Source: Nonomuraea rubra
GTDB lineage: Bacteria > Actinomycetota > Actinomycetes > Streptosporangiales > Streptosporangiaceae
Reading direction: 5' to 3'
Length of the DNA stretch: 64,000 nt
Assembly (NCBI RefSeq): GCF_014207985.1
Contig: NZ_JACHMI010000001.1
Location: 9,841,001-9,905,000 of the forward strand
The notes under the pieces are model-generated. The model made no database searches. It saw only the letters and a program-made list of their open reading frames with translations, and was not told the origin of the DNA. Numbering within the stretch: the first letter of the stretch is position 1; every line of letters begins with the position of its first letter. The position numbers and the translations under genes are program-made. This document shows, piece after piece, positions 37,123 to 39,474 of the stretch.

Positions 37123-39474
37123 TCAGGCCGACTCCCTCACGACGAGCCGGGTGGGCAGCACCACGGACGTCGTGTGCCGGCCCTCCAGCCGGGACAGCAG
37201 CAGCCGGGCCAGCGCCAGCGCCTGCTCGGCGACGGGCACCCGCACGGTGGTGAGCGCCGGGGTGGTGACCGAGGCGGCGTCCACGTCGTCGAAGCCCACC
37301 ACGGCCAGGTCCTCGGGCACCCGCCGGCCCAGCTCGCGGGCCGCCTCCAGGGCGCCGATGGCGAGCTGGTCGGTGGCGGCGAAGACGGCGTCGAGCGACG
37401 GCGAGTCCGTCAGGAGGCGGAGGGTGGCGGCGGCGCCGGCGGCTCGGGTGAGGTCGTCGGCGGGCGCGAGGTGCGGGGTCAGGCCGGCCCGCTGGAGCGC
37501 CGCCCGGTGGCCTGCCAGCCGGTCCTGGACGGTGACCAGGTCCATGGGCCCGCAGACCATGCCGATGCGGCGGCGCCCGCGGGCCAGCAGGTGCTCGGTG
37601 GCCGCCGCGGCGCCGCCCGCGTTGTCCACGTCCACGTACGGGACCAGCGACGCGATCGGCGGCTTGCCCAGCAGCACGAGCGGCACCTCCGTGCGGGAGA
37701 GGCGCTCGGCCAGCGTGTCGCCCCGGTCGGGCGGCAGCAGCACGACCCCGTCCGCCAGCCGGGCCTCGACGTGCGCGGCGATGCGCCGGTGGCTCTCGGC
37801 CGTGTCGGCGAGCATGAGCGTGATCTGCTTGCCGGCGCCCTCCAGGAGGCTCGTGACGTACTGGACGACGGCGGCGGTGAGCGCGTCGCCGCCCTGCCGG
37901 GGGACGGACAGGACCAGGGCGATCGCGTTGGTGCGGCGGGTCACGAGGCTGCGGGCGGCCAGGTTGGGCACGTAGCCGAGCTCCTTGACGGCCCGCATGA
38001 CCGCGGCCCTGACCTCGGCGCTCACGGACGACTCGCCGTTGACGACCCGGGAGACCGTCGCCCTGGAGACGCCCGCGCGGGCGGCCACCGTCTCCAGCGT
38101 GGGTCTGCGGGGCCGCGTCTCGGCCAGCCCGTTGCGGGCGATGACGTCGCGGTACCACAGCGCGCTGTCCTTCATCCGCCGCCGCTGGGTGGCGAAGTCC
38201 ACGTGCACGAGGCCGAACTTGCGCTGGTAGCCGTCGGCCCATTCGAGATTGTCGAGCAACGTCCAGACAAGATATCCGCGCACCCGGGCGCCGTCGTCGA
38301 TGGCCGCGCGCAGCGCGCGCAGGTGCTCCTCGATGAAACTGATCCGCTCGACGTCGTGGATGCCGTCGCCGGTAACCACGTCCACGAAGTCGGCGCCGTT
38401 CTCGGTGACCATCAGATCGAGGCCGGGATAGTCGCGGGAGATGCTGCCGAGGAGCAGGGAGAGGCCGTTCGGCACGATCGGCCAGCCCATGGCGGTGACC
38501 GCCGTCGGAATGGTGCAGAAGAGGATTCCCTCGCTGCCCGGATAGGCCGCGTCGGCGGGCTCGCTGGGCTGCGCCTGGACGACCAGCGGGGTGTAGTAGT
38601 TGACGCCGAGCAGGTCCACGGGCTGGGCGATGGTCTCGAGGTCGCCGTCGTGGACGTGGTCGAGGCCGGCGTGCCGCTCGATGACGGGCAGCAGCTCGGC
38701 CGGGTACGCGCCGCGCAGCGCCGGCTCCAGGAACTGCCGGTTGGCCAGCGCGTCGATCCTGGCCACGGCCGCCGCGTCCTCCTCCGACAGCTCCCTGCCG
38801 AAGTCGCTCACCTGGGCGGGCGTCATGACGGGCGAGATGTTGAGCACGATACCGACCTTTTCGGCCCCGGCGGCGCGCAGCGCCTGGGCGGCCAGGCCGT
38901 GGCCGAGCAGCATGTGGTGGGCGGCGCGGAAGGCGTCGGCGGGCGACTTGCGGCCCGGCGCGTGGATGCCCGACCCGTAGCCGAGGAACGCCGCCACCCA
39001 CGGCTCGTTCAGCGTGAACCAGGTGTCCACCCGGTCGCCGAGCCGCTCGTGCACGGCGGCGGCGTACTCGGCGAAACGCACGGCCGTGTCGCGGGCCGGC
39101 CAGCCGCCGCGGTCCTCCAGCGCCTGCGGCAGGTCCCAGTGGTAGAGCGTGGCGTAGGGCGTGATGCCCGCGCCGGCCAGCTCGTCGAGCAGCCGGTCGT
39201 AGAAGTCGAGCCCGGCCGCGTTGGGCTTGCCGTGCCCTTCCGGGAAGATCCGCGCCCAGCTCACCGAGAACCGGTAGGCGGCCATCCCCAGCTCTTTCAT
39301 CAGCCGCACGTCTTCGGGATAGCGGTGGTAGTGGTCGCACGCCTCCGCCCGGTCGGCGGAGAAGCCGTCCCAGATGGACGGGAGCCGGCCGTCGGCGGTC
39401 GTGGCCCCCTCGATCTGGAATGCCGACGTCGAAACTCCCCACACGAAACCCTCGGGGAAGCTCGTGATGCTCAT
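37123..39474 (-). CDS. Fusion of GH1 beta-glucosidase and LacI-family repressor
   Basis: One uninterrupted 783-residue frame. Residues 1-450 form a complete GH1 enzyme ([15 protein letters not shown]; acid/base Glu157 in TLNEPW; nucleophile Glu358 in VTENGAD; the normal end [13 protein letters not shown]). Residues about 456-783 form a complete LacI regulator: helix-turn-helix and hinge ([20 protein letters not shown]), then a periplasmic-binding-protein-like sugar sensor ([54 protein letters not shown]). Only about five residues join them. GH1 and LacI genes are often neighbours; here the stop and start between them are gone. Start at ATG 39474, with AAAGG about 10 nt upstream. Confidence 0.88.

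Follow-up and report, generated by a model that had tools for sequence, protein, structure and literature searches.

The window, that is, the whole 64,000-nucleotide stretch of the Nonomuraea rubra genome analysed here, carries a gene that, judging from its domains and catalytic residues, is a complete GH1 beta-glucosidase and a complete LacI-type regulator joined in one frame (Table 1). We lean towards the view that its product is a real and long-conserved bifunctional enzyme-repressor of the trigger-enzyme kind, with a shifted sugar sensing. The single-chain product, the enzyme activity, the DNA binding, the sugar response and the targets discussed below are inferred from the sequence.

The first part of the predicted protein matches Pfam Glyco_hydro_1 (PF00232) over residues 5-449 with 493 bits and covers the entire NCBIfam profile TIGR03356, "GH1 family beta-glucosidase" (positions 1-427 of 427; 546.8 bits, where the cut-off is 478.5). 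It is followed by a LacI helix-turn-helix (HTH; PF00356) at residues 459-504 and by Peripla_BP_3 (PF13377) at residues 626-782, both above their cut-offs, which is the LacI-family order of an HTH and then a periplasmic-binding-protein-like core, with the HTH internal to the chain. E157 and E358, which we take to be the acid/base and nucleophile glutamates established for GH1, are glutamate in all 71 distinct fused sequences. The original prediction of a full GH1 enzyme with both catalytic glutamates, running without a stop into a full LacI regulator, is therefore borne out: there is one open frame, and both domains are complete. The linker had been put at about five residues; seven residues separate the last position of the GH1 profile match (449) from R457, the point where relatives regain close similarity, and in unfused tandem genes the enzyme's stop codon and the start codon of the regulator fall at the place of this linker. 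An enzyme and a DNA-binding regulator are thus found on one polypeptide, as in trigger enzymes, so far as sequence alone can tell.

Table 1. Features of the fusion locus and of the neighbouring GH16-like gene in the window
Feature	Position	Strand	Basis or remark
GH1-LacI fusion gene	37123..39474	-	783 aa, ATG start; ORF list and domain profiles
GH1 beta-glucosidase domain, residues 5-449	38128..39462	-	Pfam Glyco_hydro_1
Catalytic E157	39004-39006	-	NEP motif
Catalytic E358	38401-38403	-	TENG motif
Linker, 7 residues, 450-456	38107..38127	-	Junction comparison with unfused tandem genes; pLDDT <50 at 453-456
LacI helix-turn-helix, residues 459-504, including recognition helix	37963..38100	-	Pfam; HTH/hinge signature 98-99% kept
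LacI hinge and effector-binding core, residues 505-783	37126..37962	-	CelR-like effector signature partly lost
GAGAGCGCTCTC palindrome 1	33953..33964	.	Upstream of GH16-like gene; putative operator of CelR-like tandem regulator, by association
GAGAGCGCTCTC palindrome 2	34019..34030	.	Upstream of GH16-like gene
GH16-like gene with CBM6	34062..35450	+	Opposite strand, converges on fusion; probable target of unfused regulator

A fold model of the full-length fusion reached a pTM of 0.60 and does not settle how the domains are placed relative to each other, and the best 50 matches of a full-length fold search were all GH1. Folded alone, the LacI half was modelled poorly (pLDDT 64); given this poor fold, its match to 5ysz, at an rmsd of 20, was taken for sequence kinship only. 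This entry, titled as a CelR-cellobiose complex, is the nearest solved LacI structure (240 bits vs 140 for the next). In laboratory constructs, LacI with an N-terminal fusion partner binds DNA, which makes the architecture feasible.

The uninterrupted full-length fusion is present in at least 47 of 54 Nonomuraea genomes, that of N. rubra included, the figure referring to full-length matches without a stop among the matches listed. Outside the 47, G003 also holds a full-length copy (L170) and G019 a partial one, and no fusion was found among the matches listed for G006, G013, G032, G068, and G071. Not one internal stop occurs in the 48 listed genus matches at ≥68% identity. The same stop-free fusion was detected in at least 53 of 250 Streptosporangiaceae genomes, representing at least 10 of 68 genera; in a phylum sample of 396 genomes (N. 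rubra and 395 others), an uninterrupted full-length match was found in the N. rubra genome only, among the matches listed. The occurrence of two separate genes in all relatives, which the original prediction had treated as fatal to it, was accordingly not observed, though close unfused paralogues share the same genome. Named relatives at 74-99% identity belong mostly to Nonomuraea, and PF00232 and PF00356 lie together on each of 120 proteins among the matches listed, the sources of which include Nonomuraea, Microbispora, Microtetraspora, Streptosporangium, and Sphaerisporangium. Since the database names of the fused proteins (among the matches listed) are mostly beta-glucosidase or beta-galactosidase, the regulator half has probably been overlooked.

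The fusion appears to derive from an unfused pair of genes. Among 132 loci with adjacent GH1 and LacI, 102 are fused (no stop seen; some strains are counted twice, and 71 sequences are distinct), 24 are same-frame tandems, and six are other-frame tandems. The spacing is 21 nt in 95 of the 102 fused loci (99 allowing for shorter alignments), and a gap of precisely 21 nt, with the GH1 stop and the LacI ATG in register, is found in nine of the 24 same-frame tandems; a Streptosporangium junction, NGLRGN*MRRPTLE, exemplifies the alignment with the junction of the fusion. This common spacing indicates that the stop codon and the LacI methionine of the tandem pair became sense codons in the fusion, with the length unchanged. 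In a FastTree phylogeny of the 71 distinct fused sequences and 28 tandem pairs, all of the fused sequences grouped into one clade inside the unfused family, with the tandem pair L165 as its sister. The clade received a support of 1.0 with both domains together, 0.27 with GH1 alone, and 0.54 with LacI alone, while the node above it has at least 0.99 in the single-domain trees; from the node shared with L165, the branches of the fused lineages are the longer (0.75 vs 0.23). A single origin of the fusion is thus strongly suggested on the concatenated tree only.

The tandem pairs end sugar ABC-transporter operons and resemble the BglC/CelR system, the transporter genes beside them having been recognized by eye and confirmed with Pfam only in the N. 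rubra genome. No transporter was found among the ten ORFs scanned in the neighbourhood of the fusion. In the proposed scenario, an in-frame pair (an intracellular GH1, a stop, and a CelR-like LacI repressor) would have been duplicated in an ancestor within Streptosporangiaceae, the duplicated pair would then have been fused through loss of the GH1 stop and of the start codon of LacI, and the fused copy would no longer lie within a sugar-transporter operon. The earlier description of the regulator as the enzyme's own LacI repressor holds by descent, as the partner genes adjoined before fusing. The N. rubra genome itself also contains an unfused version, L002 (G000:C1:10713855-10716245), with GH1, stops, and LacI in the same frame, which shares an overall identity of 59% with the fusion, lies downstream of the solute-binding-protein gene of a sugar transporter, and may give an impression of what the ancestor looked like. 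Two further variants were observed, namely divergent fused copies with a linker of five instead of seven residues (L049, L169, and L170, in G033 and G003) and two tandem-type LacI gene copies side by side (G071:C36:685759-688069).

Selection on the two halves was estimated by the NG86 method, which is rough for GC-rich DNA, in 21 matched genomes with both the fusion and the unfused tandem genes, in none of which does either gene contain a stop. The dN/dS values of the fusion are 0.254 for GH1, 0.181 for the HTH, and 0.282 for the core, and those of the tandem genes are 0.197, 0.048, and 0.136, respectively. By these estimates, purifying selection acts on both halves of the fusion, although on its LacI half less strongly than on that of the unfused paralogue.

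Residues shared with related LacIs are retained to differing degrees along the LacI half. The DNA-contact (recognition) helix is nearly invariant over the 71 fused sequences, which retain 98-99% of the 34 HTH and hinge positions in a signature of residues common to 18 tandem and eight CelR-like LacIs. The 96 core positions of this signature are kept at 70% on average in the Nonomuraea-type group and at 78% in the other fused group (FN and FS, split at a GH1 identity of >72%; the Nonomuraea/Microbispora-like L078 and L147 fall in FS). In the Nonomuraea-type group, 23 of the 96 are almost gone, including E524, F533, H583, and F675, each kept in only 0-6% of its 54 sequences and, among the other 17 fused sequences, in 12-59%. 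The residues R652, D702, and D730 are retained. As the sister tandem pair L165 still has F533, H583, and F675, their loss came after the fusion. The four lost residues are presumed to contact sugar, on the grounds of their conservation and of the LacI fold. With the signature of the effector half mostly lost, cellobiose-type sensing by the fusion seems doubtful, and the simplest reading is that DNA binding was retained while the sugar response changed or was lost.

Glycosidases that destroy the inducer of their own repressor are often encoded beside it. According to the bifunctional reading, the fusion would have cytoplasmic beta-glucosidase activity and, as a LacI-type dimer, would bind CelR-like operators via its conserved recognition helix. 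Its sugar response would have drifted from the inducer to which its relatives respond, and the enzyme may lower the local glucoside, or make a product, beside the sensor on the same chain. A more specific version, which is tentative and in our opinion rather doubtful, is a sugar thermostat, in which the DNA-bound GH1 cuts a glucoside and the re-tuned LacI core answers the local product or another glucoside. If true, enzyme activity would directly set the occupancy of the repressor, without any transporter operon.

The faster evolution of the LacI half relative to the unfused paralogue, in the HTH and in the core alike, weighs against the bifunctional reading and also fits a weakening role. At its extreme, the protein might be an enzyme only, the LacI half being a passenger or a dimerizing or tethering tail without regulation, an explanation that draws on this relaxed selection, on the loss of the CelR-type effector signature, and on the search for an operator of the fusion, which gave none. 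We consider it doubtful, although deserving of serious attention, because dN/dS is far under 1, the 48 listed genus matches are free of internal stops, and a mere tail would not need a DNA-contact helix that is nearly invariant in 71 sequences.

The operator search covered the fusion's own promoter in 71 sequences, and no palindrome stood clearly above chance. CG-centred 14-mers with at least six of seven pairs occur in 24 of the 71 sequences, with 28 hits vs 20.75 expected from single-base shuffles, several of the 28 being the same palindrome in related strains. A TGAGCGCTCA-like word was noticed by eye near a -10-like CAGACT in several promoters of the L139-L149 group, and is not conserved outside this group among the promoters listed. 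The recognition helix is conserved, yet no palindromic operator could be assigned to the fusion, either in its own promoter or at the GAGAGCGCTCTC sites.

The latter sites form a twin, 66 bp apart and about 3 kb from the fusion, in front of the GH16-like gene, the product of which scores 141.6 bits for CBM_6 and 21.1 bits for Glyco_hydro_16, just below the cut-off of 22. A simple sigma-70 scan of this promoter found nothing. The 12.9 Mb genome contains 12 exact occurrences of GAGAGCGCTCTC and none of its reversed control; with one mismatch allowed, the count is 37 vs 29 for the control, and such loose matches therefore carry no information. Several of the other sites adjoin GH16 genes, sugar transporters, and LacI genes, and those at L214, L215, and L216 are without a clear target. 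In the promoters of tandem operons, exact GAGAGCGCTCTC was found in 18 of the 20 start regions found (22 operons tried). The remaining two are L199, the operon of the sister pair L165, which has a one-mismatch form, and L191, which lacks the palindrome in the region extracted, probably because the operon start had been set too far upstream. A CelR-like site of this kind is known for such operons and lies upstream of GH16 genes in Catenulispora (PMC3377646). The twin sites and the genome-wide pattern probably represent a beta-glucan regulon of a CelR-like repressor. Two genes near such sites may be mentioned here. A DUF1996 protein with a galactose-binding-like domain (L213 3399-4922), encoded among three GAGAGCGCTCTC sites beside a LacI gene, is a candidate member of the glucan regulon, and an open frame of 664 codons that matches nothing in Pfam (L216 3491-5482) has an exact GAGAGCGCTCTC near its start.

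Direct control of the adjacent GH16-like/CBM6 gene by the fusion, by which the latter would repress through the twin GAGAGCGCTCTC and be released by oligosaccharides from the glucan that the GH16-like enzyme would cut, was favoured first because of the paired operators and the gene linkage. The pair in front of the GH16-like gene accounts for two of the 12 exact genomic sites. Of the 45 genus genomes with both genes, 41 have the fusion and GH16 on opposite strands no more than 12 kb apart. The examined flank contains one or more exact sites at 27 of 33 named fused loci, and the recognition helix differs little from those of the unfused regulators with the site in their operons. However, GH16 retains at least one exact site in all six genomes in which the fusion is absent (G006, G013, and G032) or located elsewhere and divergent (G003, G030, and G033). 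The unfused LacI is present in 51 of 54 genus genomes, and the three that lack it (G012, G031, and G068) also lack the GH16 orthologue. Among these, G031 possesses the fusion and has no exact site, G012 is alike with one site, and G068 has neither the fusion nor exact sites. In other genera, an exact site is near only one of 14 fused loci (7-9 kb either side). As the sites are kept without the fusion and absent in G031 with it, GAGAGCGCTCTC is not assigned to the fusion, and its direct control of GH16 is unlikely. The controls argue instead that the occurrence of GAGAGCGCTCTC tracks the unfused regulator, together with the GH16 gene that it probably controls. A LacI of the L007 type (≥75% identity) was rejected as the general owner of the sites, for it is found in only nine of the 54 genomes.

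A single chain is the likeliest product of the gene, judging from the start codons around the junction. Two products would arise if the LacI part were also made by internal initiation, for which N. rubra offers an ATG (M434) 23 codons ahead of R457, and an ATG lies within 30 codons before R457 in eight of the 71 fused sequences. The M434 codon is not conserved, however, relatives having mostly Leu, Pro, or Thr codons, and a start codon of any kind is present in the 12 codons preceding R457 in seven of 71 fused sequences, as against 27 of the 28 tandem pairs, 24 of which have an ATG there. A ribosome-site-like word followed by a start was found in none of the 71 fused sequences, a weak test, since only five of the 28 tandem pairs pass a similar one. 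With start codons not kept in the fused sequences, a conserved internal LacI start was rejected as unlikely, and a second product of this kind seems very improbable. An assembly error, or a stop lost recently in one strain, is practically out of the question: nothing speaks for it beyond the caution in the original prediction about a lost stop or a sequencing indel, and a base error at the junction is ruled out by the same stop-free architecture in independent assemblies across the genus, the family, and named strains sequenced by others.

Among known systems, the fusion shares its protein types and their order with BglC-CelR/CebR of actinobacteria, which comprises an ABC transporter, an intracellular beta-glucosidase (BglC being the name of the T. 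fusca enzyme), and a LacI regulator. The two probably have common descent from such a pair, and the nearest solved LacI structure is the CelR-cellobiose complex noted above. Unlike that system, the fusion is one open frame rather than two genes. It has no sugar ABC transporter in an operon under a CelR-like site (ten ORFs scanned) and no operator found of its own, and the effector-half residues common to tandem and CelR-like LacIs are changed. The unfused operons of the BglC-CelR/CebR kind carry the sites AGAGAGCGCTCTCT and GGAGAGCGCTCTCC (PMC3377646).

No description of a complete glycosidase fused to a complete LacI repressor was found in the literature searched, for the most part at the level of search listings; the architecture is already visible in protein databases via precomputed domains. 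What the genomes hold is a one-frame fusion that seems to have been kept by selection in many species, in most of them beside unfused paralogues in the same genome, and the two forms provide a ready comparison of what the physical link between enzyme and sensor adds. The locus also appears to preserve a clear record of a gene fusion via stop-codon loss, with the sensor changed later.

The general kind is known. Trigger enzymes of E. coli, including PutA, BirA, NadR, PepA, and PyrH, likewise combine a metabolic enzyme and a DNA-binding regulator in one polypeptide (PMC8249747). In contrast to these, the fusion joins a complete glycosidase to an entire LacI repressor that brings a sugar-binding core of its own, and its dual activity is predicted. 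In BzdR, a shikimate-kinase-like regulator, enzyme and DNA-binding domains were also joined in evolution, and the enzyme domain lost its activity and became the sensor (PMC3602430). In contrast to BzdR, the fusion keeps the catalytic residues and has a separate sensor core.
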